Shown piece by piece: positions 13,547-37,941 of a stretch of DNA of 64,000 bases. The translations under genes were made by a program, and so were the position numbers. The DNA lies in NCBI GenBank assembly GCA_950295325.1, contig OX485808.1, positions 36,541,180 to 36,605,179 on the forward strand, given 5' to 3'. The notes below the pieces were generated by a model, which searched no databases, was not told where the DNA came from, and worked only from the letters and a program-made list of their open reading frames with translations. This stretch comes from Polytrichum commune. Its lineage: Eukaryota; Streptophyta; Polytrichopsida; Polytrichales; Polytrichaceae. Position 1 is the stretch's first letter; every line of letters starts with the position of its first letter.

Positions 13547-15058
13547 ATCCTATACCGCATGCATAATAAATTTCCTTATTCTCCTCTTATTGAAGTTATT
13601 GAGAAAATAAGAGGAAAAAAAGGCTCCTTATCAAAGGTATGTTGCAGGCATCAATGTGTATGTTTGACAAATTTCATTTGACATTCAACTTCAAATCGAA
13701 AGTGTCACGTGATGTTTTCAAAAATGAAAATGAATGTCAATCGACATCTATATTTTCTTCTAAAATGTCACCTCAATTCTCATGGCTAGTAGTACGTGTC
13801 ATTTCATTTTTTGAAGTGTCAATTGACGTGTGGTTTTTTCCTTCACAAGTCACACTACATGTCAAAATCTAAATTGTGCATGTCAAGCGACGTGCAATTT
13901 GATTTTGTGCAAGTTTTGCGTGTCAAATGTCAAAAACTTGCAAAAACTTTGTCAAAAATACACACTGGTGGGCATGGTGCCCATCCCCAGACCTCCATGT
14001 GTAAACACAAACTAAGTCAACAAGATATACGTCTCTGAAACATTAAAATATTGCGTAGCTACCCATAGCATCAACCCATTCCCGGTGTACACAAGTTGAG
14101 TGAGCATTGATAACCATACACATGAAAGTCAATCTTGAGCCCACTATGGGCCGGTTTAGACTACGCTGAAGAAGGCCACTAGTCTTTTAAGAATTTCCAC
14201 CCACGAAATGAGAGTTGTATGCTAGATGATGTTATGTATGATGTACAAGATGGAGAAAGAAAGAAAAAAAAGGGAAGAAAAAAAAAAAAAAAAACAATAA
14301 CAACAACAACAACACGAGATCTGCTAATGTGTTATGCACCAGATCTTTGGAATGTGTAATGCACCAAGATCTACAAATATATTATGCACCAAATCCGGGT
14401 CTATAAATGTGTTTTGCAATGAAATTAACATATCTGAACTTGTTAATGCACACAATTATTTCATACAAATAATGCATGTCAAAAGGAATTAAACTTGCAG
14501 TGGTTTGCCAGTTTGATGTTGATTTAGACCATGCTACAACACTTATTTGAGTGCAAGCTGACTTCAATTTGGGTTCTCTTTTTGAAGCCATGCAGTGGAT
14601 GAAGCCAAAAGCAAGCAATGAGTTATAAAGCCCAATCTCAACAAGTCCCATTCACACACCAATTGCAGAGAACGCTTATAACAACGGCTTTTTTTTTTTT
14701 TTTGGAAACTCAATGTGACGATGGAAAAGAGGACTCAGCTATCTTCTTGAATATATTCCAAGAAAGAAAGAGATAATTCATTTTGCATACATAATTGCAA
14801 GATTCCACACAGAAATGATGATGAGGATGAGAAGAGGTGAAGTTGGTGAAAGAAACCATATTTTCATGTGTCATCAAATACTGCAACAATTTATTGTGTG
14901 TGCCGTGTCTTGAGTGCAAAAACTTCCACACAACCAAGTAATTAACACATATCAAAGACCGAGACTCAGCTATAACAAAATTCACAGATATTTCATGCAG
15001 ATAACTCTCCCTTGATTGAATGCACATGCTTGTGATAATGTATGATATGCTAAACAAG
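13547..15058. other. No supported gene
   Basis: AT-rich sequence. 13640-13960 repeats short 'tgtcaa' and 'acgtg' phrases without a fixed period. 14275-14320 is an A-rich then CAA-rich tract and 14686-14702 a T-run, possibly tails of old retroposons. No gene was recognised. Confidence 0.4.
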
Positions 15059-17160
15059 CTACACTGTTTATGGTGTTTAGTGGCACGTACACTATTTGCG
15101 AAGGGCCTAAACTAGATGCCTGGAGATTTCAAAATGTCACACCCGCCAATTGCCAATATGATTTTATTTATCAACATAAGTAAATTTTTTAAAGTGAAAA
15201 AATATGTACATTTTGACATTAAGAGTAGCACATTGGGATACATTAGATGATAATCTTCCATTTTTAGTATGCAAGGGGAAATTTTATTTTGAGCGTGCTA
15301 ATGGAAAATGTCATGAGTTTATATTTTAGTATGCAAGCTGAAGATGTTCTTAAGAATACTAATGGCAAGTGTCATTTGTGTATACTTTGATCAACTTGTA
15401 AATCATTGTGTAACATATGCATGCACATCATAACATTATTGGACATGCTCATGTCAAGATATTAGTAAGCGCACTTGAACGCCAAGTGTCATGAGTTGAC
15501 ACTTATGGTGAAGGTGTTAATCATCAACATAACTCTATTAAGTTTTTAAGCTTGTTGGGGAGTGTAGCTCTTTACCAGATTGGCAACAAAGTTCTTGATT
15601 TCTGGAGACAACAAATTCAATTTGAATAACAGGGATAAACGATTGTTACTACCACACACCGTGGATTGATAGAGCATTCTCATAATCATGTGTATTGAAT
15701 ACTAAGTTGTAAAGTGAGATTGAAGACTTCCTCTTGAAGTTTCTTATGGTGGGCCACAAATTCTAATACACCCACCTCATTCAAAATGTGTCATATGGAT
15801 CTTCGTTTACAAAAGTCTTCAATGATGTTTACAATGAAATTATGGACAACATAGTCAAAGAGAGGAGAGTAGATGAAAACCCTAGTAAAGTTATCAAGTT
15901 CATGTTCATTCGAATTTTATGGTCAAGTTGCTCTAGTTACTTGATCACTTTTGCCTTGATACCCCATATAAGGATGAAACACCATATTTTTTTGGAAGAC
16001 TATGTATGACATTGTAGATAGCTTTCTTTTTCTTTTTCTAGTTGATGGAATCAATGTATCATGGTGTATGCTCATGCTCAATCTCAAGCTTAAATGGGGA
16101 AATATGTGCAATAAAGCTATGAACAAGGAAGAGGGAGCCATCATCTGGTCCCTTTGGAACATCATTGTTGCAATGAACTCTTGGTTTTCTAGGTAATTTG
16201 TCATAGAAGCCGATTGCAAATGCCGCATGTGTCGACAACATCCTGCAAACCATTGTACACATGTTTTTGAATTGTAGAATTGCAAGGAGAGTATGAGATT
16301 ATGCCATTGGGGTCATTACACTGAGTATGATATTTAATGTCACTTACATTTGGGTTACATACTCCATTTATGGTATTTAGTGTCACGTACCCAATTTGCA
16401 AAGGGCCTAGATTACATGCCTAGAGATCTCAAAGTGTCACACCCACTAATTGCTAATATGACTCTATCCATCAACATAAGTAACTTTTTTAAGTGGAAAA
16501 CATCTACATTTTGTATATTTAGAGTAGCACATTAGGATATGTTAGATGCTAGTCTTGCGTTTTAGTATGAAAGGGGAAGATATTCTTGAGTATACTAATG
16601 GCAAGTGTCATGTGTTTACATTTTAGTATGCAAGAGGAAGATATTCTTGAGCATACTAATGGCAACTGTCATTTGTGTACAATTTAGTCAAGTTGTAGAC
16701 CATTGTGTAACATAGGCATGCATTTCATAACACTATTGAACATGCTCGAGTCAAGATATTAGTAAGCGCACTTGAATGTCAAATGTCATGAGGTGACACC
16801 AATATTCCAAACAATATTTAGTCTCATACAACGTTCATAGTATTTAGTGTCATGTACATTATTTGCGAAGGGCCTAAACTAGATGCCTAGAGGAGGCCTA
16901 GAGGAATGTAAGTGTCACGCCCACGAATTGTCAATATGATTACATTCGTCCACATAAGTAACTTCTTTAAGTGAAAAAATATCCACATTGTGACACTTAG
17001 AGTAGCACATTGGGATACTTTAGATGATATAGTCTTGCATTTTAGTATGCAAAGGGAAGATATTTTTTAGCGTACTAATGGCATGAGTCATGTCTTTACA
17101 TTTCAGTATAGAAGAGGAAGATATTCTTGAGCATATTAATGGCAAGTGTCATTCTTGGGT
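15059..17160 (+). repeat. Cluster of three 'TATGGTATTTAGTGTCAC' MITE copies
   Basis: Three same-direction copies start near 15059, 16363 and 16831, each opening with a variant of TTTATGGTATTTAGTGTCAC followed by a conserved 'atttgcgaagggcct' phrase and shared interior text ('agagtagcacattgggata'). They are truncated on the right and do not show a complete second terminus. Complete or right-end copies of the family lie at 38775-39143 and 31700-31938. Confidence 0.75.
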
Positions 17161-17334
17161 AGGTTGCTTAGTGCATTTTAAAAACGAAATGTGACTTCAT
17201 AAACTAGGCAGGAATAAATTTATTTGACATAACATTTATAGAAAACTTCTACATAATTTAAGGACCATAAAAATGTATAATCCCATTACAAGTAGCACAT
17301 GGATCGATATAGATTGCATTATATCCCTTGAACC

Positions 17335-17440
17335 GAGGGAAGCTATCTTATGAGCGATGAGCAGTGAGCGGTGAGCGGTGAGCAGTAACACATGAGCAAT
17401 GAGCAGTAACATATGAGCAATGAATCCAAATTTAGTAAAG
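17335..17440 (+). repeat. Left terminal and subterminal repeats of the giant MULE
   Basis: After the terminal motif come repeated units of TGAGCRGTGAGC and GTAACACATGAGCAATGAGC. Such clustered short repeats near MULE ends are often transposase-binding sites; that role is inferred here. Confidence 0.75.
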
Positions 17441-17664
17441 ACACACGGGTTTAGGGTTTACAACCAAATTTTTGACAAATTAATTGCATATTTTCAATTA
17501 TAAATTGCCAATATTTTAAATGAAGCACAAGTGAAAGGGCCCTATTTCCATGGATCATTTAGAACACTTTCAATCCATTGCTGATTTTTATTATAATAAT
17601 TCAAACCAATACATGTCATATATTAACATCCTTATACATGTAGCTACAACTAGCACTTGTACAA

Positions 17665-17784
17665 CTACTCACATTCTACAACACCAGCAAATTCAAGTAG
17701 GTGCATAACCTCATTATACATATATGTCGGTGCCATAATTGTGAGCCACTCAAACTGCTCACGGGTTGAATAAAGGCCCATAAT
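17665..17784 (-). pseudogene. Duplicate last exon of a MULE transposase
   Basis: After a TTTTGTAG acceptor, the minus strand encodes MAPTYMYNEVMHLLEFAGVV and a TAG stop. This is a diverged version of the end of the main transposase (APTYTYNEVMRLLELAGIV at ~18241-18320). The flanking 3' DNA (17560-17660) is also duplicated at 18130-18240. It is either a partial tandem duplication or an alternative last exon. Confidence 0.7.
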
Positions 17785-17849
17785 CTACAAAAGAAAGAAA
17801 ATTATATATTAGAAATAGTGAATATGTAGGTAGCTACTAGGTTTTGAGA

Positions 17850-18060
17850 CATCCGCCTGTGGATGCGAGTTGTGTAAGAGACTGGTATTAAGTCTGGATC
17901 AACCCGGGTTCGAATCCGGTTGGTTACATTGACTGGTGCTATCCCAAATTGAGCTAGTGATAAAGCAGGAATAATCTATAGGCGGATACCAAGAAGACGT
18001 TACTACGCGGATGTGCGTAGAATCTTCTTAACTATTAATTATTTTTAGAAACGTGATATT
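17850..18060 (+). mobile_element. SINE-like insertion with tRNA-type B box
   Basis: GGTTCGAATCC at about 17910 is a perfect Pol III B box, and a plausible but weak A box lies about 35 bp upstream. No full tRNA cloverleaf is present. It lies between the two duplicated transposase 3' ends. Boundaries are uncertain. Confidence 0.45.
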
Positions 18061-18240
18061 ATTTATCCGTGTGAATCAATCAAACCACACATGGTTGGGT
18101 CACAGTCTAAATAAAAATGAAGTTACTGAATCATTTGAAATACTTTCAGTCCACTGCTAATTTTTATTATAATAATCCAAACCAAAACATGTCATTTATT
18201 GACATTCAAATATATGTTGCTTAATAGAACACTTGCAATA

Positions 18241-21200
18241 CTACTCACATTCTACAATACCAGCAAGTTCAAGTAGTCGCATGACCTCATTATAGGTATA
18301 TGTAGGTGCATGAATGAACTTGTCACTCTCGTAATCCACCTTGCACAAAAATCTAAACACATAATAAAGATGTTTACAATACACCCATTTTCCTTTCTTT
18401 CCCAATGCATGAGAGGACATTTTCGTGAAATCTAGACATGTGCAATGCGGGATATCGCCAATTGTGACATGGTAGGTGATATCCTGCTTGGAGACAATGT
18501 TGATTATCACTCCAAAGCCCGGATATGGAATGGCAGTGACCCCAACCACATAGTAACCTTCCATGAGTCCGGCGCTCTCCCATTTGTTTTTGTGATCCGC
18601 CAGAGGTGTTGTTGGATTACGACAAACTGTCTTCCCAAATCTGAATGTAGGGTGGGCGTCTGGGTTTGGTGGCATAGAAAAATGCGATCGAGGGATGGGA
18701 AGAGTTGCGATTGTTGAAAGCCTACGACGAGGAGACAATGCCTCCCTCTGCTGTAGTTGAAATCCAGCATCTTCAAGTGCCAAAACCTCCTCTCTCGATA
18801 GATTGGTACCTATCTTCACTGGCCACGTGTTGGGTACTATAGGCCAATCCTACACATACTTCTTCTTACTGCCACTCACACAACGTTTGATGTCGTCAGG
18901 ACAAAACCAAAATTCATACTCCACATTGTTGGGAGAGCGAAATTCCTTCCTAAGCCCTTTGTATGTTGGAGCAGGTGTGCCATGTTTCCCAGTCCTGACT
19001 TTGGCATTGCACATAGTCCCTGTAATGGCCTGCAGTGCCCAACAACGCTTGGCTGAGTTGGATGGCAATCTTGCAATGTGCCACTTAGAAGCAAGACAAT
19101 CAGTCTCTAACACGGATGTAGTATGAGCCACACCATGAATTGCAGAACTCAACGATTCCTCTATGCGTTGACGAGTTGCTCGGGTGTTGGGACGAGGAAT
19201 GGAATAGTTCACTTTGTCGGGTCGATGAGAGTCACAATCAGCATCCGGTGGTAGGTTGAGTTTGCGTTTGGTGGAACCAAAGAGCTCTGACCCTTCCAAT
19301 GCACAATCTCTCGTGTTGACGTCTTCTGCCCCTGGATAAGACTTCATGGCATCGGCCAACATTTTTGGATCTCCACACCTGGCAGCCGCTTTGAGTTTCA
19401 AGGATGCCGAATCAGGACCTTTACCATCAGACCCCTTTCAACCATGTCCGGTAATTTGCAATTTGCATGAAGGCACGAATCATGTCGTCCACTGTAACTT
19501 CATATAAACAAGTCATCTTGTTGCCGGACTGTTGAAGCCATTTGTTGTGTACAGTCTCTGCAAGGTTGCATGTTGGCATTTTCGCACGTTTTTCTATTGT
19601 CATATCCTATGAACAACACACAAATATGAGGATAAGAAAAATAGAAGATATATATAACAGTGGAAGAAAAATGAATGACATTGAAGAATGAAATTTGATA
19701 TGTACTTATAAATAGCATATGACCACCCCATTGTCTGTAACGAAAGTGCCAAAAACCCAACCACTCTGAAAGGCCAAGGATGCCTTCTTCTGAGGCAGCT
19801 CCGGATGACAACCACCAAGAACGAATCACATGATACTTAGTCTCGGCGTCGTCCATTATTTTTGCGTCTTTGTAATCCTTGCATATTTGCTTGTGTTGAA
19901 ACTGCAAGGATGGTTTGATATACTTTTGGGTCACCATATCCAAGCTTGCAGACCAATGGAAAAGACATGTACGCTCACGTGCAACCATGGGTAGACTTGG
20001 ATCACCATCCCCGTAAATCGCCCTCACCGCATTCCAATTAGCTTGAGCACTATTAGCCATAAACCCTTTGAAGTTTACGTTTGGTACACCATTTTCTGCC
20101 ATGACATTATTCAAATTTTTCCAAAAGAGAATTTGTGCTCCACCATCTTCAGATTGCATGTCACAACACGCAATAGTCAACACTTTACAGTATCGACTGT
20201 CGTACACATGGCAAGCCATGGTCGTCCAGCCTTCAAACGTTTGACATGGTCAACATAATCCATGAATTCTCCATGTCCCCACCGACTTGCATCCTCTTCA
20301 CAAGCTCCACACCACTACCTGGAAGGTCTACAGACATCTTAAAAACAAACACTTTGTCCTTTGACTGCCCTGGAAACCAACTACCATGGACGAACTTGAA
20401 AGCAGAGTGGTCGTTGAATGCCATAATACTATCCATAGTTCCCATTCCACTACGCAAAAAACGCTTTGATCCGGATACAAAGTTACGACAATTCGGGGAC
20501 ACAAGAGTGCTGAATTTGTCCATGACGACCTCTAGGGATGAACCAACCAAGTGATGGCCTTCGACATTTGCGGGAGATTTGAGAAGGTAATCGGCCAAGA
20601 ATTGTTTGCTTGCTGCCATAACTATGGTTGAATTTTTGGCTGTGGGTGTTTTCAATACTTCATTTGCAACGCACAGGTATGCCATGTCCAATGACTCACG
20701 GCATGTGCCATTGGCCATAGGGTGATCATGTACACCAATATGAATGCAAGCCTTGGACATTCCAACAGATGTGGAATGGATGTATAGGATTCGAGCATGA
20801 CATAAAGCAATGCACACAGGTGTGGAACGACATACCTTACACTCGACAGTGGACCTAGAAGGAGGAACATTACCCACAGCAAATGGGAGAGGAGTTGAAC
20901 TGGCCCATTCAGTGTTGTTCCGGAGGCCTCCATTGCGATTCATGTAATCACAGTAGTCATTAGGACATTGGAGATGACCAGCACAAGTGGAGAGCCGGAA
21001 GGACAATCCAAAATCATTTTGGATATTGGTGGTTTTGGTAGTGCACCAAGGGTGACCGTCGCACATCTTGTCCATGCCCTCCATTGAGCGGCCATACGTA
21101 CTTGGAGCTTTAAGTGTCACAGGAGGTAAGAGAAATAAAACATCATCATTAAAAGAAGATGGTAAGTACTTGATATCATGAACATCTATACTATCAAAAT

Positions 21201-21843
21201 CAATGGATGCGAGATCTGACTTTGATTTTTTTCTAGACTTTGTAAGCTTCAAAGCATCAACGATAGTCAACCCTATAGATGAAGGTGAAGGGTGTAGTGG
21301 AGGACGTTGAGAAGGTGAGAGCTGGGGAACCAAACTCTTGTACATAGGACCGCATGGAGATTTGGCTATATATATAGGAAGCTGTGAAGAAGTGGAATGA
21401 AGACTTTTAAATGGAAACGGCGATGTGTTTGAAAGATCAACAGATGCACAAATGTCATCTTCCGAATCTGATAGCACAAACACACAATCATCAGTGGGTT
21501 CAAATTTAACATGTGCGACATAGGGAATTTGAACGGTGGATGTACCGGATTCGTTTGTCAAGATGATAGTTGAAGCTTGCATCTGAGATTCAGAAAGACC
21601 TATTACCCTAAATGAACCAGGTCCTAAGATCCACATAAAACCAACCTCGGTTCTGTTTTTTTGAACCAAAACCGTTTCATACACCTCTCCATCTGCAGAA
21701 TACATCTCCTGTTCTAAATACATGGTTCCTATCTGGAGGTTGAATCTCAGACTAAGCAAATCCTCTAAGACATTGACATGACCATCATCTTGAAGTGACA
21801 AAATGAAGGGAACAAAAGATCCGTGAGCTCTAATGGTAGCCAT
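18241..21843 (-). pseudogene. Mutator-like (MULE) transposase with WRKY/GCM1-like and SWIM zinc fingers, decayed
   Basis: MULE transposases cut at the element's terminal repeats and insert the element elsewhere. The start is probably ATG at 21843 (MATIRAHGS). The first segment (20233-21843) carries a Cys/His domain (GHPWCTTKTTNIQNDFGLSF ... CKVCRSTPVC ... HIGVHDHP) like the WRKY/GCM1 finger of plant MULEs. The DDE domain (19715-20219) has HVYDSRYCKVLTI, FMANSAQANWNAVR and a Glu in LSEWLGFWHFRY. After an intron at ~19.61-19.71 kb come segments ending in a SWIM finger (HCTCLDF ... YCKHLYYVF, ~18370-18450) and a stop at 18241. Defects: a frame break at 20235-20237, a second at 19432-19435, an in-frame TAG at 18850-18852, and Asn where I expect the second catalytic Asp (codon 20052-20054). 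It probably no longer encodes an active enzyme. Confidence 0.85.
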
Positions 21844-22546
21844 GGAGAAGAAGGAAAAGATGAACAACACATGACAATAATCTTAGATCAACATCGCTTT
21901 TGTATTGAATAATGGAGAATATAATAATGGATGTAAATTAAAAGAGGTGATACCATAGCATCCAATAATACAAAAGAAGACAGATCATAATAGTAGACAG
22001 AGAATATTTGCAAGGAAGATATAGAATCCTAAATCAGATCCCAAAAAATATCTCCTTTAGAAACTAAGCCATAGGAAACTTGAACCCACAAAGGAGTTGT
22101 CTAATATAAGATTATCACATGGGAGAAATGCAGGCACGGATATCATGGAGAAAACGGCGTCAAATAATAAACAAGTTGGCAGAGTTTTAAAATACGACTG
22201 TGTAGGCTGGATGTAGATGCAGGAACAATTAAAATTGGCTGGCAAAGTAAATGATTGGCCATTATAAATAGAACAAAGTCAATGTGGTAGGTTGGGATAT
22301 CAGAGAAATTTGGCGGATATAATAAAAATAGAAGCAGAGTGAAAGACGCGTTAAAACAACTTGATCATTGGACGCCAATTGCAACACTGATGATCGTAAT
22401 GTGCGCTAGGTTTAAGTGAGCTCTAAACACTAAACAAATGTATGAAAGTGGAGTGGTAGAAGATATATCATAGACAGCAATGATAGTGGAACATGTAAAG
22501 ACAACACTAGTGAGGCGGAAGAGAAGACATAGGAAGGCGGAGGACG
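21844..22546. promoter_or_regulatory. Divergent promoter interval of the giant MULE
   Basis: This 0.7-kb gap lies between the leftward transposase start and the rightward small gene, so it should hold promoters for both. It is AT-rich (e.g. 21895-21935). No specific element was identified. Confidence 0.4.
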
Positions 22547-23586
22547 ATGAAGGTGCAGAGAGCATGCAGACGATGGTATTTCGGAGTCGGAAATGAAGAC
22601 GAGTTCACAAAACAGAAGAAACAAAAAGGTAAGTCAGTTTCTGAAATTATTTGATTTGAAATTATTTTGTTATGTATTCCTTAACAAGATGTTGTTTGTT
22701 TATCTTGTTCGAAATATTCATATGGTTGATTGTATAATTTTTATTTATATTATATTATGTATGTATTTAGTTGAATTATGATGGGTATTAACACATCTAT
22801 GTTGTCAAGTGCTAGTAATGTGACGTTGGCGATCTTCTTTTGAAGAACCAAAATTTCTAGCAAGTCCATCACCTTCACGAAGCCTCCCTATCTATGCTGA
22901 GACCGTGGCTTCTGTTTGGAGTTCATAAATTTAGTGGCCGAATCATTATTAACATCCATGAAATGCATGTTGTTGAGAGTAACAATGTAGTGCAGAGGGT
23001 AGCTGAATGCGTTTAAATGTAAAAGAACGTCATTTATTCATATTAGCAGTGGTTATTCTAGTGAAGGGTAGGAAAAAAAATAGGCGAAAAAATAGCTTTC
23101 GTTTTTCAAGTAAGAGACAATTGTCAAGGGCTAGAATGAATAGACGTATTCCTCGAATGAAAGGAGTGGACCTATCAGGTACAACAAGGAATTTGACGTA
23201 TGAAGATATTGTGGCATGCGAAATGATAACAGAAGATGTCTTCGAACACCAAACTCCTACATGTGAAGCTCAACCACATATCGTCTTTGAATGCAATGAA
23301 GAAGATGAAGACGAGGAAGATTATGATAAAGGCATCGACAAAGAGCAAGCACACAATACGAAAAAGAAGAACAATCTTCTGAGGCGGAATTGGAGGTAAG
23401 TTGTACGAAAGAAATGATAAAAGAAGAAATTTAAAATGAGAATCAATTTAGAGGTATATAATATATACTATATTGTGCACACCGAAAATACGATTCCAAC
23501 GGTATATAGCATAAACAAAATAATTTTGTTTTGCATGTTTTAGAGCCAAAAAACAATTAGAGCATCTTAGATTCTTCAAAACATGA
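22547..23586 (+). CDS. Small three-exon MULE-borne gene of unknown function (~152 aa)
   Basis: Modelled by eye: exon 1 22547-22628 (donor AAAAAG|GTAAGT), exon 2 23062-23395 (acceptor TTCTAG, donor GGAG|GTAAGT), exon 3 23544-23586 (acceptor TTTTAG, stop TGA). The frame is open across both joins. The N-terminal third is strongly basic (KGRKKNRRKNSF, KRQLSRARMNRR), suggesting nucleic-acid binding or nuclear import; the centre reads GTTRNLTYEDIVACEMITED; then comes an acidic run (NEEDEDEEDYDKG) and a charged C-terminus. I recognise no family. It lies between the transposase and the ParB-methyltransferase genes in the same direction as the latter, so it may be a cofactor. Intron 1 contains a fragment related to the methyltransferase C-terminus (22808-22928), which makes the model of exon 1 less certain. 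Confidence 0.5.
22808..22928 (+). pseudogene. Remnant of a second methyltransferase-type C-terminus
   Basis: The frame ending at TAA (22926-22928) reads FLASPSPSRSLPIYAETVAS, closely matching LRSPSLSPQSLPVYAEALAE in the last exon of the methyltransferase gene (29580-29650). It indicates that a second, older copy of that gene once lay just upstream, or that its last exon was duplicated. Confidence 0.6.
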
Positions 23587-23878
23587 AGATTTTATGCAGG
23601 AAATCTAACCATATTAGTTTAGTAGACTTTGACGATTTATGTAAAATTGATATTATCTCCAATAATTCTGAAAAACAATGGAGTGAAAGGCAAGGCTTAA
23701 ATCTATGCACTTGATTTTTTGTGGGAACTAATTAGGATATTTGAAAAAATTATAGCAAAGATTCCATAGACTGAAATCTACCAAAAAAATTTTTTTTTTT
23801 TTTTTTTTTAAGAGTCCGACTTACGCTAATCTCTTGAAGCCATACTCTTCGTAATGTCTTCAGACATCCTCTTTCGAA

Positions 23879-26800
23879 ATGCGGCGGCAACAACATACGC
23901 AAGAAGCAAGAACGCGCACCATGGAGGATGCAGATGCTGGTACAAGTTCCAGGCAGCGACGTGGGCACATAGACAAAACGAGCAAGAGCGACAAAGAAAC
24001 TGCAACTCCGGAAAGCGACTCAAATGAAGGTGAGTTTCTCTTCCAAATGGATAGCCGTTAACGGCCACCCTTTCTATGATGCCCACTTCTGTATTGTAGT
24101 CTGTTTCATCTAAAAGTGTGGCCGTTAACGGCCACCCTTATTCTCATTTCAAATTTTTTGTCATAAGGATTTCTTTCTACATGTAAACACCCATTTCTCT
24201 CATTTTTTTTTCCTTCAATAAGGGTGCCCGTTGACGGCCACCCTTATTCTCATTTCAAATTTTCTTTCATAAGGGTTTATTTCTACATGTAAACACCCAT
24301 TTCTCTCATTTCTTTTCCTTCAATAAGGGTGGCCGTTAACGGCCACCCTTATTCTCATTTCAGATTTTTTTCATAAGGGTTTCTCTCTATATGTACACAC
24401 CCATTTCTCTTATTTTTTGTCCTTCAATAAGAGTGGCTGTTAACGGCCACCCTTATTTTCATTTCAGATTTTCTTTCATAAGGGTTTCTTTCTACATGTA
24501 CACACCCATTTCTCTTATTTTCTATCCTTCAATAACAGTGGCCGTTAACGGCCACCCTTATTTTCATTTCAGATTTTCTTTCATAAGGGTTTCTTTCTAC
24601 ATATACACACCCATTTCTCTCATTTTTTTTTCCTTCAATAAGGGTGGCCGTTAACGGCCACCCTTATTCTCATTTCAGATTTTTTTTCATAAGGGTTTCT
24701 TTCTACATGTACACACCCATTTCTCTCATTTCGTTTCCTTTAATAAGGGTGGCCGTTAACAGCCACCCTTATTCTCATTTCAGATTTTTTTCATAAGGGT
24801 TTCTCTCTACATGTACACACCCATTTCTCTTATTTTCTGTCCTTCAATAAGGATGGCCGTTAACGGCCACCCTTATTTTCATTTCAGATTTTCTTTCATA
24901 AGGGTTTCTTTCTACATGTACACACCCATTTCTCTTATTTTCATTTCAGATTTTCTTTCACAAAGGTTTGTTTCTACATGTACACACCCATTTCTCTCAT
25001 TTTTTTTTCCTTCAATAAGGGTGGCCGTTAACGGCCACCCTTATTCTCATTTCAGATTTTCTTTCATAAGGGTTTCTTTCTACATGTACACATCCATTTC
25101 TCTCATTTTCTGTCCTTCAATAAGGGTGGCCGTTAACGGCCACCCTTATTCTCATTTCAGATTTTTTTTCATAAAGGTTTCTTTCTACATGTACGTACCC
25201 ATTTCTCTTATTTTCTGTCCTTCAATAACAGTGGCCGTTAACGGCTACCCTTATTCACATTTCGGATTTTTGTTCATAAGGGTTTCTTTCTACATGTATA
25301 CACCCATTTCTCTCATTTTTTTCCTTCAATAAGGGTGGCCGTTAACGGCCACCCTTATTCTCATTTCAGATTTTTTTTTATAAGGGTTCTTTCTACATGT
25401 ATACACCCATTTCTCTCATTTTCTGTCCTTCAATAAGGGTGGCCGTTAAAGGCCACCATTTTTCACATTTCGGATTGTTTTTCATAAGGGTTTGTTTCTA
25501 CATGTATACACCCATTTCTTTCATTTTTTTCAGCTTCAAAAAGGGTGGCCGTTAACGGCCACCCTTATTCATATTTCAAATTTTGTTTCTACATGTATGC
25601 ATGCATGTGTGTATGCATTCATTTCCTTCATTTTTTTTCTCGTAGAAGAGTGGCCGTAAACGGCCACCCATATTCAAAATTTAGACTTTTTGGGAATATG
25701 TGGTTTTCTCTCTTATGTATACTCTCACTTTCTTTAATGTTTTTTCATTTTGTTTTAGTTTGCATATATGATTTCTTTCCTATGTATATATTTCTTTTGA
25801 TTTATTTTTGTTTCTCAAGTGGGTGATATGTTTTGTGCTTTAGATTTGGAAGTTGTACATCTTTCTGAAGATCAAATGGAGATGCAATTGCATGCATTTT
25901 TTAAGAAAGAAACTGTCAACACATCTTCCCGTCTTGAACGGTTGAGGTATCAACCAAGGGCAAAATCAAACTCAACATTCCACTATGTCGAATGATTGCA
26001 TTGCCTGTTGTAAGGCCTTTTCTAAAAAATGATGTTATGAACCTGGCTGCACATTTTGTTGCTTGTGGTTATATGGAGGGCAATGGGGTTTTTTATGTGG
26101 CCTTGGAAAACAATGAGGGAAAAACCTTAGATGTTACCGATAGTATCATTGACTCTTGGAGTGAAAATTGGGTGAAGGCTAATGATGCCTTTGAAAAAAT
26201 ATTGCAAGCTGATGAGGACCTCAAAGTTTTTTCTAGGAAAATGTTCATGGTGTGGGACGGAAATCACCGTTTGCAAGCACGGTTGCCCATTATTAATCGA
26301 GATCACACACATGATCCGGTTTGGCATTATGCTTTTGAAAGTATTATTTTGGACGTCAAAGGAGATATTGCAACCATGTTGGCAGCTTTACATGAAGTCA
26401 ATTGGTAATTACTTCATTCTTCTCTTTTTATTTATTCGGTTCATTTGGTTTTTTTTTTAGTTTTTTTTTTTATTGTATATCTTTTTTGTTTGGCTTATCA
26501 TTGGATGTTTTGTTTTGACAGGAGGAACCAAAAATCTCATGTTTGTACCAATCTTGTTCATAAGTTTTTCCGCATTCAAAGCATTGTTGGACAACCACTT
26601 TCATATTTTGAGAAACTTGTTTCCAAAGAAGATCTTACTGCCGCTGATGCCAAACAAAAATCCAAACATAGGACTTGGTTTACTTTTACTGTTGAGGCTC
26701 TTAATGGATTTCTATACCAGGTTATTTTTTTTGAAGTATTCATTTTTCACGATTTTTATTTTCTTGTATATTTTTCTTGTTTTCTTTTTATTTCGATTTT

Positions 26801-29759
26801 TATAACTATATTTTCTATTGCATCTTATTTTTGTAGTGTGTGATTATTCATACTCTTATATGGTTTTTCGTTGGTGTAGCAAGAGTTGGGAGATGTTGCT
26901 GCTACTGCTCAAAGAAAATTTTATGAGAAATATCTTGATCCTGCGCATTGGACTTCGAGTGCAGTAGATGAATTTGTTTCCAAAGCTGTTGAGAGGGTGA
27001 GATTGACTTCCATTCGGAATTGAAAAAACAACTTCTCATTGCGGATCCTAAACATTCTCCTATGTTCTTAGAGCAGGTGAAGTCTCATTATGAAACTCAC
27101 GATAAGCACCCTGAGATGACTCAAGAGAAACTTTGGATGTTAGCAACTTCGGCAATGGACACATCTATGAAGATTAAGTGGCTTGAGAGGTGGAACAGTC
27201 CACCTGCTCTTCGTGAGGCTCTCAAGTTTCCGAAACCAAAATTCAATGATATAGAGTTTCCTAAGTGGCTTCATAAAGCTACTTGGTGGGCTCAGGTGAT
27301 AATTTTTGTGCTTCTATTATGTTTGGTTCATTTATTTTTGGTCTGTGTTTTTAATTTATTTTTAATATTTTTTCAATCATTTAATTCTTCTACTCTTTAT
27401 TTTGTATTTGGCAGTTGGCTATTGAGACCGAGAAGCTCTTTGATGCTACTGTGGCTGATATGCATGTGTCCATCAACTACCTTCCAGATGGTATGGATCC
27501 TTTATCCATTATTTTTGATTATGTGGAGGCAATGCGCATATCATTGTGGGATACTGCATTTTTTCGTGAATTCGGTGTGGATAAGGGAGTTCACAAAAAT
27601 CATAACATTGACAAGCAACTCAATTTTTATCCGGCCATGCGAAGGGTGTTTTATAGGTACTTCAAATATGTCTTATTTCCTGCGAAAGCCATTTCCAAAT
27701 CTCCCATTTTTTTGGCTAATTATTTGGATATCGAAAGTGAAGAATGCATGTTCACAGAGGGGATCATGAAATCTTGGGATCCTATGCATTTTGAAAAATG
27801 TGGGTGGTATTTGGATTGTCCTCTTAAATCACCTCCCACTTTTGATATTGCCCTTCGAGATTCCATTCAACCCACCCTCAAGGGTACAACTAAAATTGTT
27901 CCCTCTATAATGGATGAGGATGCAGCCAAGATGCCAAAAAAAAAAGTCTAAGCCTAAAAGACCAATCCTCCTCATTCATGATAGCGATGAGGATGCTCCA
28001 ATTCAAAGCAGTCTCAACAACCTTGTAGTTACTGAACCTTCTTCTTCAAATCTAGAGGCAACGTTTCATACTTCAAAGCGGCAGAAAACAACCCCTTCTC
28101 CTACCTTGGATATGCCTCCCAAGCTTAGAGGTATGATGAATATCTTGCCTCCTTACCTGCAAATCATACATCTTCGGATTTAATCTTGAATGATTCTTTT
28201 GTGAGGATTATCGAGGATAAGAAGCAAACAGGTACATTTCGTGCACCATATGACGACATTGTGGCTTTTCTATCAAAGGTGAGTTCATTTTATTTTACAG
28301 TTTTTACTTTATTCAAGTTTTATAAAGTTTCACTCGTATTTTGTTACGTTATTTCATTTTTATTTTTAATTGTCATCTTTATTCATGAATTGTAATATTT
28401 ATATTTTATCTTTGTAGGTTGGTGAAGGTAAACAATTTTTTTTATGGCCAATTGCAAAAGAAACCTGCTGTGGACCTCATTATTGCGGATTACCCAGACG
28501 GTCTTCGGGTTCCAGGTGTCTCGGATCCGCCATCTCAAATTCCCCCTTGGAATGCCAACATTCCAAGTTTTCTCAACATATTGATGGCATTTGCTCTTAC
28601 CTATCTTCATGATGATGGAGCATTCCTTTTGTTTTATCCTGACAGTACTGCCGTGAAGAGAGAAGTGGTAGGATTCTTCAAGAACTATAAGTTCAAAATC
28701 AAGGATGAGTGGACTATCATTAATTCCTTGCACTTGGCAAATCCTATGAATCTGTCCAAAAATGTAAGTAGCAATTATGACATTTCATTTTGATTGGTTC
28801 ATATTTGAATTTGTTTTTATGTGTTGTATATTTTTTAATTTCAATTTTATATTGACTTTCAGACTTTGAAGTTCAGGGCTTTGTTATTGGTTCGATCATT
28901 TTCAATTCCCATTGCGAGGCAACCTCAAGAACTTCTGATCACCATGCATCCTTCAATTCCTGAGGTCGATTTAGCCACAGATGACGTTCTCTTCAACTCT
29001 ATTACTATGGAAACTCAATTATGTAGACAAAGAGATGGCAAGCCATGGAGGGGTGCAAAGGAGAAGTCTGAAGTTTTAATGAAGTTATTTGTTCATGGTT
29101 TGAGTCCTGTAGGCGGTATTGTGGCAGACATGACTGCTTCTACAGGTATTGTATATTACAGTATCCAATTATTCGTTCATATGTTTTTTAATTCATACTT
29201 CAATGTTCGTATTTTTCTAATTAATGTTTTGCTTCATCCAGGTTCTTCTATTAGAGCGGCTCATTCATCTAATCGTCATATTCTAGCATTAGAAAGTGAT
29301 GCCGAACTCTTTGATGAGGTACTAAAACCTCTTCAAACACCTACAAATGATACCTCATGCGATGGTATGGACTTTGATGATGATACTCCAATAGAAGACG
29401 CCGCACTTCTTAACTTATGTGAGTAAGTTTTTTTATTGTTTTTTTCTCAACAACTTCAATTGCAAATTCTAGATTTTGTATTCTAATTTGTTGTTACATA
29501 TTCTAATACATGGTTTGTTGTTTGTAGTTGGATGAATCCATCGCCGATACAAATTTCGTCATTTTATCGGCACCGTGGATTATTGAGAAGCCCCTCTCTT
29601 AGTCCTCAGAGCCTCCCTGTGTATGCTGAGGCTTTAGCTGAAGCTTATGCTAATGCTTCATCTACTTCATCTTCAATTTCACCTTCACCTCGTAGATATT
29701 ACGATACTAGAGTATGTGCTTATTTTGAACTCAGTGCATCTGAGTCCGACGATATTTAA
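23879..29759 (+). CDS. ParB-like domain + beta-class-like DNA amino-methyltransferase, nine exons (~1,075 aa)
   Basis: Exons by splice sites: 23879-24029, 25844-26404, 26522-26720, 26880-27295, 27415-28278, 28418-28763, 28863-29145, 29242-29422, 29528-29759. An acidic/basic N-terminus precedes a ParB/sulfiredoxin-like domain (~residues 90-200; RMIALPVVRPFLKNDV ... MVWDGNHRLQARLP), where DGNHR aligns with the ParB GERR motif. A long helical middle ends in an NLS-like basic patch (KKKSKPKRP, ~27940) and HDSDEDA. The C-terminus has motif IV-like DLIIADYPDG (~755), then VADMTASTGSSIRAA and LALESDAE (~935), the motif I region following a KSEVLMKLF stretch: the permuted order of beta-class N6A/N4C methyltransferases (PF01555-like). 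Both catalytic motifs depart from DPPY and FxGxG, so activity is uncertain. Frame breaks lie at 25958-25960, 26995-26997, 27936-27945, ~28126-28131 and 28436-28443, four of them in homopolymers. Inference: a DNA-modifying or DNA-binding protein carried by the MULE. Confidence 0.75.
24047..25672. repeat. Array of ~16 palindrome-centred repeats in intron 1 of the ParB-methyltransferase gene
   Basis: Units of about 105 bp each carry GGCCGTTAACGGCC; in the best copies the perfect palindrome extends to 26 bp (AAGGGT...ACCCTT). Palindromes occur near 24055, 24120, 24225, 24330, 24432, 24540, 24645, 24750, 24853, 25020, 25126, 25232, 25337, 25440, 25547 and 25650. One interval (24.87-25.02 kb) is longer because a unit lost its palindrome. 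The linker is T-rich with conserved 'tctacatgtacacaccc' and 'catttcag' phrases. Apparent long ORFs across the array are artefacts of the repeat period. The array starts 17 bases after the exon 1 donor and ends about 170 bp before exon 2. Confidence 0.95.
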
Positions 29760-30428
29760 GTTTGTATTCATGATTTGATTTTTGAAATTTGATTTCCAAG
29801 AACTTCAACAATTTTAATCTACTACCCGATTTATATCTACAATCCATTTTTGTTGTTCTTTATGTTTTGGACTTCGTAAATGTCACCCTCATGATGGTGT
29901 TATGATGTATTTAAATTTTACATTGATGTGTATTATAGTGAGACATTCTAACATGCTACACTTGTTTTCAACATGAGTTTGCTTACACATTGTCTCCAAT
30001 TACATTATTATTATCTCAACAATTAAATGTATATTAGTTCATTTTTAGTACAAAATTGTTATAGCAACATTCTCATTTGTTGTTCATTTGGACTATAGAC
30101 CCTTACATGTAATTCCACAGTCATAGGCCCCCAACGGATTTACAAACCATAACCGGGAAAAAATTGAAGGCTCACATGTTCACGCTCGCATGCTCACATA
30201 CTAGCAACCCCGAGTCGTGTACATATTGGTCTTTTTCATTGCTCACTACTTGCAATCTAGCATTCATATTATTTGTCCTCCCCAATCTTCTTATTATTGA
30301 ACCCTAAAAAATAATTTCTTTAGGCCACGGTTATAGGATACTCGGGGTCCTATTACCAAATATTTTGTTTTCTTCACCGCTCACAAATTACCGCTCATCG
30401 CTCACCGCTCACAAGATAGCACTCCCCC
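29760..30428. other. 3' flank of the methyltransferase gene and right MULE terminus
   Basis: AT-rich 3' UTR-like sequence to ~30.1 kb, then subterminal sequence containing 'tcaccgctcac' and 'tcgctcaccgctcac', the inverse of the left subterminal repeats, ending at GCACTCCCCCC (30428). No further gene was seen. Confidence 0.6.
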
Positions 30429-30437
30429 CCTTGAACC

Positions 30438-35939: not shown

Positions 35940-36590
35940 ACCTCTAAGTTACTTACACATGAAGCAGTCGAGTTTGAGAAATAACCAGTTGAAGTTCAAG
36001 ACTTCAGGAAAATCACCGATCCATGAAGAGAAATTTGCAGATTAATTATTAATTTAACAAAAGAAAACACAAAAGATGTCAGTTTGTAACCAGTTGGAGT
36101 TGGACACACTAGGATGTCGACCGATTATGCCCAAAAATCTCCCCCAACACTCTGGTCAGAGAAGATTTCCACAACCCACATGAATTCTGGGGGCCGCTTT
36201 ACACATGGACCGAGATGTTTAGTAATGAGAAATAACTTCAGCCATGTTATTTCTCAACCCATGCCAAATCTATAGTTTAAAATCAGTGTGTACCACATAG
36301 TTTTTGTTTTTTTTTAGGACATTGATTTGCAGGACTATGTGACTGTATGCTCCTTTTGTCTTTGAAGTACTGTAGTATTCAGGACATTGTCTGAGGAGAG
36401 TTTTGGGCATATTTAGTCAAAACCGTAGTGTTTCCAAGTCCAACCGGTTACATGTTGACATCTTTCAAGTTTCTTTATAGATTTGAGGTATATTCCATAC
36501 TTTTTTTTTTAATGACCAGTGATTTCCCACAGTCTTGAATTTCAACCGGTTCATTTGTAACTAGTGGTCGGTTCTCCCCGTTCCTTGATA
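35940..36590. mobile_element. Inverted-repeat (foldback) element, family A
   Basis: The left arm (~35955-36180) and right arm (~36390-36585) read in opposite directions and share 'tgtaaccagttggagtt' and 'atgcccaaaa' text and their inverses, around a ~200-bp centre. Same family as 190-600 and 61575-61770. Confidence 0.6.
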
Positions 36591-36939
36591 TATGCAAATT
36601 ATCCATGTGAACCAATCACAAAGCTTTTTAATTTAGTGGTCCAAGAGGGTGTCTTGGATTCATGGACTGTCAACATCACCAAAATGATTTTCAAATCTAG
36701 TGAAAGACGCTTCATGGGGAACTGGAGGACCATTATAATGCTAGGAACAATATTTGGCAGGCTCTATATGTTTTTTTTTGGAGAGTTTGATAAGTTGATG
36801 GGCGGAATTGAAAGGGGTCAGAGCAACAAGACGAGCAACTTTTATGGAAGGTATATCTACTTTGGGCTACATTTCTTACATATGTGCTTTAATTGAATAA
36901 GAAGTATTTGTAGGTCGATGCCTCTATTCTTGTTTTGTT

Positions 36940-37941
36940 GATTTCCATATGCTTTTGACACAATCCCATGAGACATGCTTTGGGAACACCTCCAACGATT
37001 AGGTGTGCCACTTCATTTACAACAAGTTGTAAATGCCATGTGCACTGCAGTCTTTGCAGAAGTACAAATATATATTAACACACATGGTGAAGCAATGTTC
37101 GACATCTTTGTTAGACAAGAATGTCTCCTCTCCCCCACACTATGCGGCTTGTACATCGATGAACTTGAACATCTTTGGTCGAGATTGACATGGATTCTTT
37201 GTGTTTATTTCACACAATGGTTGCCATTCTTCTTTATGTTGACAATGTTGTTTTCAATAAGGGCATGAAGATGTAGATGACGTTTCACGTCCAAGTGCGC
37301 TCTTCGACTACCTATAATGTTTTGGTGGCCGAGTTTGGAGAACCTCCCATAGAACTATCTGCTCTTAAGTTCACCATGGATTTTCAACAACGGCTTGTCC
37401 ACCTACCCTCCTCTTGGTTAGTCAATAAAGCAACCTCACTTTCTTGAAACCTTACCAAACAAGGATTTAACACCTGACACAAATCAACAACTATGTGGAA
37501 GGCATCATGGGATCTATCTCATTGGGAAGTTTGTGACAATCTAAACACATCGAGAATCACATATGATGATATCAAGAAGGCTTTTTCTTGCTAAAGCGAG
37601 GAAATCATTCCATTTCTTAGGGAAGAAACTTGGATTACTTCCACCTCAAGGATTTTCTCAAATACGAATGTGAATTATACTTGAAGCAACCATTGACACC
37701 ACCACAACGGAAGATCATTGTTGCTTACCGCACCTCAAACCATAGACTTGCCAATGAAATCGGACGGAGGACTACTATCCCTGTCTCTAGAGATAATAGA
37801 CTATGCCATTTTGACTCCTATACCGTAGTTATTAATGAAGCACATTTTGTGTTGGAATGCCCCCTATATAACCTCATTAGGGACAAGTTTCCATCACTAC
37901 TTGAGAATGTAGTTTTGGGGAGCCTCGAGTCTTTCTTTTAG
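36940..37941 (+). pseudogene. Decayed LINE (non-LTR retrotransposon) reverse transcriptase and C-terminus
   Basis: LINE reverse transcriptase fragments are spread over frames. 36975-37190 encodes MLWEHLQRLGVPLHLQQVVN then VRQECLLSPTLCGLYIDELE, matching the VxQGCPLSPxLFxxYxDxL region. About 37220 a YVDN variant of the YADD box appears in another frame. 37630-37941 encodes RTSNHRLANEIG ... RLCHF ... HFVLECPLYNLI, the Cys/His C-terminal region typical of plant LINEs. Several frame breaks show it is dead. 37950-38160 may be its 3' end. Confidence 0.8.

Follow-up and report, generated by a model that had tools for sequence, protein, structure and literature searches.

A MULE-like element of the moss Polytrichum commune carries a gene for a methyltransferase-like protein and clade-specific arrays of CpG-bearing palindromes

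The window, by which we mean the whole 64,000-nucleotide stretch of the Polytrichum commune genome that was analyzed, contains a MULE-like element in which a transposase gene on the minus strand and a methyltransferase-like gene on the plus strand lie head to head and divergent. The features of this element are as follows.

17325 to 17334, no strand: left target-site duplication CCCTTGAACC, read from the sequence, 9 or 10 bp
17335 to 30427, no strand: complete MULE-like element of 13,093 bp, bounded by inverted ends and a flanking duplication
18241 to 21882, minus strand: transposase gene, several open ORF pieces, with a C-terminal CxC...CxH SWIM-like zinc finger
23879 to 24029, plus strand: exon 1, 50 codons and one base, GT donor, phase fitting exon 2
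24030 to 25843, plus strand: intron 1, GT-AG, tandem palindrome array
25844 to 26404, plus strand: exon 2, candidate ParB/Srx-like domain, DGNHRLQA, frame break near 25,940
26521 to 26720, plus strand: exon 3, in the middle region, without a known domain
26880 to 27295, plus strand: exon 4, frame interrupted near 26,996
27415 to 28278, plus strand: exon 5, middle region with a basic NLS-like patch, breaks near 27,940 and 28,130
28418 to 28763, plus strand: exon 6, with DLIIADYPDG at the motif IV position; frame interrupted near 28,437
28863 to 29145, plus strand: exon 7, PWRGAKEK...VADMTASTG, methyltransferase X/I region
29242 to 29422, plus strand: exon 8, SSIRAAHSSNRHILALESD, covering motif II and the end of motif I
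29528 to 29759, plus strand: exon 9, C-terminal tail and stop
30428 to 30437, no strand: right target-site duplication CCCTTGAACC, read from the sequence

The nine-exon layout given in the original prediction is possible, with GT-AG borders at all eight introns and with five exon ends or starts (exons 2, 3, 4, 6, and 8) shifted by 1-2 bases by eye. The motifs that it had named are also present: DGNHR at 26,256-26,270 in exon 2, DLIIADYPDG in exon 6, VADMTASTG/SSIRAA spanning the exon 7/8 border, and the NLS-like patch as a basic KKKK..KPKR in exon 5, lying across a frame break. The claim that these nine exons encode a protein does not hold for the window copy itself, which has no single open frame and is interrupted near 25,940, 26,996, 27,940 (an A run), 28,130, and 28,437 (a T run), either through decay or through homopolymer assembly error. 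In another copy, L011, the equivalents of exons 2-8 are open throughout with no break detected by eye, and L008 is open across the site of the window's first break. The exon layout is taken as sound in view of L011, whose ParB-like exon is about 65% identical and which is open over exons 2-8. The assembled genome of 407.8 Mb, of whose 64 contigs seven are large, holds at least 151 matches to the ParB-like exon (150 of 1,173 candidates scored). The family has well over a hundred members. The assembly also has above-cut-off matches to SAM_LFY of the LEAFY family, which 14 control genomes lack, pointing to a land plant or close kin. For comparison with the window, 40 further loci were chosen non-randomly, 20 (L009-L028) for open frames and a spread of identity and 20 (L029-L048) for differing frame lengths.

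The ends of the window element are short, imperfect terminal inverted repeats (TIRs) (left, GAGGGAAGCTATCTTATGAGCG; right end, reverse-complemented, GGGGAGTGCTATCTTGTGAGCG) with sub-terminal TGAGCGG-type repeats, and CCCTTGAACC is duplicated intact at both borders, its length being 9 or 10 bp depending on border placement. MULE transposons make target-site duplications of 9-11 bp. The transposase is called MULE because of this length and its CxC...CxH pattern; profile searches gave no confirmation, the Pfam SWIM match (E 0.21) lying below the cut-off, with no MULE-domain match in Pfam, joined pieces included, and no match in a PDB search. The right end is also matched in L021 (81%) and L025 (86%), and in L021, L022, and L033, transposase DNA that is 76-79% identical to the window's adjoins the gene. 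Transposase pieces were found near 6 of the 20 loci L009-L028 (L010, L016, L021, L022, L024, and L025; tblastn E≤1e-4), a count that is a lower bound because these loci span 9.5-9.9 kb and two are partly masked. The prediction that the gene is carried by a transposon is supported: inverted ends and an intact 9-10-bp duplication enclose the transposase and the gene together. A host gene outside transposons was rejected in view of the inverted ends, the duplication, and the many copies.

Several other features were observed in and around the element. Between the transposase and the second gene lies an open frame of 130 codons (23007-23399, plus strand), basic and then very acidic. By the left end, a diverged second copy of the transposase C-terminus (17668-17739, minus strand; 79%, 24 residues) may stem from local duplication. 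The stretch 17821-18010, with a tRNA-like B-box (GGTTCGAATCC), is perhaps a SINE; ARAGORN called no tRNA. Just outside the left end, at 15052-17109, a segment of 280-470 bp is present three times and is 79-81% identical to part of L025, and at 36561-37941 (plus strand), broken frames resemble, by eye, the reverse transcriptase of a non-LTR retrotransposon.

The main new result of this analysis, absent from the original prediction, is the arrays of palindromes that accompany the gene. Intron 1 (24,030-25,843) of the window copy contains 16 palindromes in tandem, with cores at 24,053-25,665 and 13 of the 15 spacings at 104-106 bp; the consensus, AATAAGGGTGGCCGTTAACGGCCACCCTTATT, is perfect in five of them. 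Over 13 units, the palindromes are 96% conserved and the spacer 90%. The 20-bp core has 332 sites in the genome at up to one mismatch, against none for the reversed control, and two other palindromes of the same design, GGCCTCGGATCCGAGGCC and TGTCTCGGNNCCGAGACA, have 2,171 and 1,310 exact sites, again with no site for the reversed controls. Of the window-type sites, 50 exact ones were listed and compared, with a reach of 5 kb, with 75 of the at least 151 gene copies: 44 are upstream of a gene copy, at distances of 278-1,613 bp, and none is downstream; the other six, at three places, have no copy from this incomplete list within 5 kb.

A de novo search took in the 2.5 kb on the 5′ side of the ParB-like exon and scored as an array any recurring 18-mer dyad with four or more copies. 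Such arrays were present at 24 of 41 loci, the window included; the controls, namely 21 regions located +0.5 to +3.0 kb downstream, 19 chunks of the window lying beyond the element, and 390 dinucleotide shuffles (10 for each of 39 loci, the masked L015 and L017 being left out), yielded none. One array in a later intron of L027 (+2.4 to +3.7 kb) falls partly inside the downstream control, with fewer than four copies there; further later-intron sites, at C1:10,938,933-10,939,926, follow the exon at 10,937,025.

The palindromes vary between clades (GGTTTCGGTACCGAAACC, CCTCTCGGAACCGAGAGG, GGCCTCGGATCCGAGGCC, TGTCTCGGTCCCGAGACA, GGTGCCGTTAACGGCACC, and others), and 21 of 24 consensus palindromes have in common two CG dinucleotides separated by four free central bases (CG-N4-CG). 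As for the exceptions, one CG is replaced by CA in L021 and by CT in L024, and the best dyad of L020 lacks the core, which is found in its second dyad, GGTGCCGTAAACGACACC. When the palindromes of 28 loci were masked, their flanks fell into 21 groups without similarity at E≤1e-3, and identical palindromes were found despite unrelated flanks in L037/L044, L038/L045/L047, L026/L027, and L023/L032. The core itself is tested by the de novo list and not by this flank scan, because the dyads there were chosen by the core. CpG dinucleotides are kept in the palindromes and depleted between them, with 482 in 5,676 bp of palindrome and 330 in the 37,466 bp between them (22 loci), the former count being inflated by the rule by which palindromes were recognized. 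We would guess from the fixed spacing of the CpG pair in most sites that binding may be methylation-dependent.

That the arrays are selfish satellite repeats or sources of hairpins, bound by nothing in particular, is scarcely credible. Slippage does expand tandem arrays and perfect palindromes can form hairpins, but unrelated repeat units here have only the palindrome core in common, the palindromes of the 13 window units are better conserved than their spacer, and palindrome type co-segregates with protein clade. In the tree built from 27 ParB-like domains, the 10 palindrome types require nine changes, which is the minimum, a count that none of 200 shuffles reached. These types were assigned by us from the arms, seven comprising at least two loci and three a single locus; the array loci L016, L026, L039, L041, and L048 are outside the tree, and the array of L024, a member of type C, is degraded. 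Because arrays and protein are physically linked, shared ancestry could by itself produce the co-segregation. Flanks that are unrelated speak against descent as the whole account, without pointing to this protein as the binder.

Indeed, the transposase is linked to the same arrays and would therefore co-segregate too, so that it could equally be what binds them, and tandem palindromes in an intron could serve as enhancers. Under such an explanation, the palindromes would be sites of the element's transposase or of a host factor (enhancer or insulator), and the methyltransferase-like protein would act otherwise. We consider this unlikely: the arrays are located within the methyltransferase-like gene or immediately on its 5′ side (intron 1 in the window, and also a later intron in L027) rather than at the terminal inverted repeats, no CG-N4-CG dyad was found elsewhere in the 13-kb window element, and clade-specific arms are unexpected for host factors.

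The 17 loci negative in the de novo test include all nine clade B copies (L009-L012, L014-L017, and L025), of which L015 and L017 are masked in part or whole. Among the other eight, L013 and L027 have arrays farther off or in a later intron, and the remainder are L018, L019, L028, L034, L042, and L043. A scan for CG-N4-CG dyads recovered three to four copies of AGCCGGTGCCGGCC 5′ of the gene in L009, L011, and L016 of clade B, as well as six palindromes in L013 and two dyads in L012; L010, L014, L019, L025, L034, and L042 had none, and the same was true of L015 and L017, which are masked. In L010, L014, and L025, which belong to clade B, a 53-bp tandem repeat without CG-N4-CG palindromes lies 5′ of the gene. 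The scarcity or absence of palindromes in clade B copies, and this repeat in some of them, are unexplained by a model in which the protein binds the palindromes.

Palindromes of another clade's type were also observed downstream of the exon, in L012 at +4.3 to +4.7 kb (TCTCGGGACCGAGA) and in L024 at +1.0 to +1.2 kb (CCTCGGATCCGAGG), perhaps as parts of neighboring or nested elements. Two long arrays, at C1:468,609-471,945 and C1:2,252,877-2,257,761, lack a listed gene copy, the match lists being incomplete; these are either solo arrays or belong to unlisted copies.

The protein is under purifying selection between clades, as judged by dN/dS values of 0.04-0.16 for the ParB-like exon in pairs at dS 0.6-1.5. 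Over 38 listed pairs, the median for this exon was 0.13, with the window copy counted twice in one pair and copies with stops in the core left out. Within the window clade there is little constraint (dN/dS 0.87 at dS 0.05 for the window and L006). For the methyltransferase exon, the sole informative pair (L013/L027) gave 0.08, and two pairs near saturation (dS about 1.75) gave 0.38-0.39. A gene that was captured once and has been decaying since was rejected in view of the between-clade values.

Profile matches show that the C-terminal half of the protein has the fold of beta-class amino-methyltransferases, in which motif IV precedes motif I. The Pfam family N6_N4_Mtase (PF01555) was found in all five members searched (best 1.1e-9) and the best PHROG match reached 1.5e-12; the window copy alone scored 0.001, below the Pfam cut-off, and 8.7e-5 in PHROG, the strongest scores being those of its relatives. 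Profile matches to CcrM (positions 3-218 of 227, E 3.2e-4) and to DpnA (last quarter, 8e-5) agree with the predicted permuted order, which, like the assignment to a beta-class-like enzyme, was supported. Phage methylases are only remote relatives, the best match having 25% identity at E 1e-4. CcrM, DpnA, and RsrI share with the plant protein the motif order and the motif I/II region; the plant protein differs from them in its replaced DPPY, a large N-terminal extension, introns, and its transposon setting.

The catalytic motif IV of beta-class N6/N4 methyltransferases, [DNS]PP[YFW], was found in none of 34 copies (0 of 14 and 0 of 20), nor does any of them have an aromatic fourth residue. Its position is occupied by DYPDG, EYPDG, DLPEG, DIPEN, and close forms; the pattern [DE]xP[DE][GN] fits 13 of the 14 and 12 of the 20, and the other nine deviate, three of them without the proline. 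We therefore describe the domain as derived from a beta-class enzyme and not as one. It had been predicted that DPPY is altered, possibly with a changed or lost activity, and, as DPPY is absent from all 34 copies, the domain probably lacks ordinary base-methylating chemistry. The accompanying guess that the element marks its own DNA by methylation is not supported, for the same reason. An active amino-methyltransferase that places 6mA or 4mC on the element's own palindromes would draw on the beta-class fold, the recognizable SAM-binding motif I and motif II, and the typically palindromic substrates of bacterial methylases; against it stand the missing aromatic residue and a motif I that reads DLTASTG, DVTASSG, DWKAGTG, or similar rather than DPFxGSGT, and we hold it to be quite improbable.

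The N-terminal half is harder to place. GNHRxxA is invariant among 17 diverged members. Box II of ParB follows the pattern G-x-x-R-x-x-A, which the GNHRxxA of all 17 fits, and the N-terminal part has a VRP...LE..F...GY...YVS layout that resembles ParB/Srx by eye. With the exon uncut, the PHROG family "ParB-like partition protein" was matched by 3 of 17 members (best 0.049); with an insert of about 40 residues removed, it was matched by six (best 0.0024), a result weakened by a PHROG of unknown function that was also matched by six (0.0029). DndB (0.064) and DUF1015 (0.11), both named among ParB-fold proteins in part of the text of PMC12704722, matched one member each, and so did zf-H2C2_2 (0.041) and PH (0.095), which lessens the weight of the former two. 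The ParB-like exon has no Pfam ParB match, and NCBIfam and PDB searches with it were without result. Aligned by hhalign to a profile of 10 phage and bacterial ParB domains, it scored 12.2, with 100 column-shuffled decoys reaching 16.0, and with the insert removed 11.9, with decoys reaching 19.7. Single-sequence AlphaFold (pLDDT 35.9) gave no usable fold. Of the predicted ParB-like domain, the conserved GNHRxxA and the PHROG matches in 6 of 17 members therefore stand, while neither PF02195 in Pfam, nor hhalign against its decoys, nor AlphaFold recovered it; taken together, these results weakly suggest that the N-terminal domain may be ParB-like. The middle region gave no match in Pfam.

Matches to PF02195 elsewhere in the assembly were rejected as plant ParB genes, as they lie on three contigs of 20-61 kb (C10, C12, and C23) with a bacterial look. 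The genes on these contigs (L049-L051) are of bacterial ParB type, and two of them carry an N6_N4-like methyltransferase in fusion (proteins of 443 and 711 aa, of which the longer has an insertion that may, by eye, be an intein); the contigs are likely contaminants or associated microbes.

Fusions of this kind from phages and bacteria (OP947158.1, "ParB-like partition protein," and L049) have the same order of ParB-like region, middle region, and beta-class methyltransferase as the plant protein. Their methyltransferase parts align with it by hhalign at a probability of 97% (E 2.7e-10 for the phage fusions) over columns 64-227, i.e., with motif IV excluded, whereas between their ParB parts and the plant domain there is no significant alignment. 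They are also single intronless open frames with a DPPY-like motif IV in most rows, which the plant copies lack. Pattern scans of viral and genome contigs, with two short peptide patterns per scan, revealed no close prokaryotic or viral relative. With ParB and parS, the moss element shares, in kind only, clustered palindromic sites near the gene for a protein with a GNHRxxA box; it differs in that no ParA was noticed, in being a eukaryotic transposon, and in a fold that is only predicted. The protein could alternatively be a ParB-like clamp that pairs elements or assembles transposition complexes, with no part in anti-silencing. ParB loads at parS and spreads, according to the portion of PMC12704722 that treats it, and tandem sites favor assemblies; with the ParB fold as weakly supported as it is here and no partner ATPase noticed in the element, we judge such a clamp highly improbable.

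The nearest working analogue is VANC of the Arabidopsis VANDAL transposons. In the sections of PMC5735166 and PMC10398659 that describe it, VANC binds short tandem-repeated noncoding motifs, including those in VANC and VANB introns, this binding leads to loss of methylation over the element, and the repeats turn over fast. In those same sections, the system resembles ours in that VANC is a further gene of a MULE, in the tandem short motifs in noncoding DNA including introns, and in a motif that varies between related families; a clade-specific motif in the element's own tandem repeats is thus shared by VANC and the palindrome arrays. In contrast, the VANC motifs given there, YAGTATTAY, AGTTGTCC, and AGTTGTAC, are non-palindromic and have no CG, whereas the moss sites are palindromic and CpG-bearing, and the word "palindrome" is absent from the texts of both papers. 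VANC is also unrelated, the fold of the moss protein being methyltransferase-like, and the spliced protein has no Pfam match at E≤1 to DUF1985, the VANC domain. No comparable system was found in searches of the openly licensed PubMed Central literature, including the available portions of PMC12704722, PMC6446971, PMC5735166, and PMC10398659; in the main text of PMC12704722, "plant" and "transpos" have no occurrences.

We cautiously favor, as narrowly probable, a model in which a protein that reads clade-coded palindromes acts on its own tandem arrays and keeps the element unsilenced. Composed of a probable ParB/Srx-like domain, a middle region, and a methyltransferase-like domain, the protein would bind DNA and, probably as a dimer, read the arm-CG-N4-CG-arm palindromes carried by its own element, arms and protein changing together from clade to clade. 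It would load on the array and, perhaps, spread as ParB does from parS, which is a guess that depends on the predicted ParB fold. In this way the regulatory region would escape cytosine methylation and silencing, allowing the transposase and the protein itself to be expressed, and the clade-specific arms would restrict the effect to the element's own kind. Binding of the sites, dimerization, spreading, and anti-silencing are all proposed steps, and the last is suggested by analogy. The original prediction had offered evasion of silencing as a guess, to which the palindrome arrays now lend support, the mechanism itself being something that we infer. A more specific form of this model, which we regard as tentative and rather doubtful, is a clade-coded self-recognition resembling ParB/parS, in which a ParB-like clamp joined to a retired methyltransferase would read CG-N4-CG in a methylation-sensitive manner, load in the intron, and hold the element open by spreading, with at least 10 protein-palindrome codes among the copies read.

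If the favored model is true, plant MULEs would have evolved anti-silencing a second time, independently, with a protein whose methyltransferase half resembles bacterial and phage enzymes and with a code that may be read from the genome by comparing arms with clades. It would bring within reach the questions of how transposon factors change their target specificity, whether they sense CpG methylation, and whether a methyltransferase fold may serve as a DNA reader. The natural protein-site pairs of this one genome could, in addition, yield sequence-specific DNA binders.
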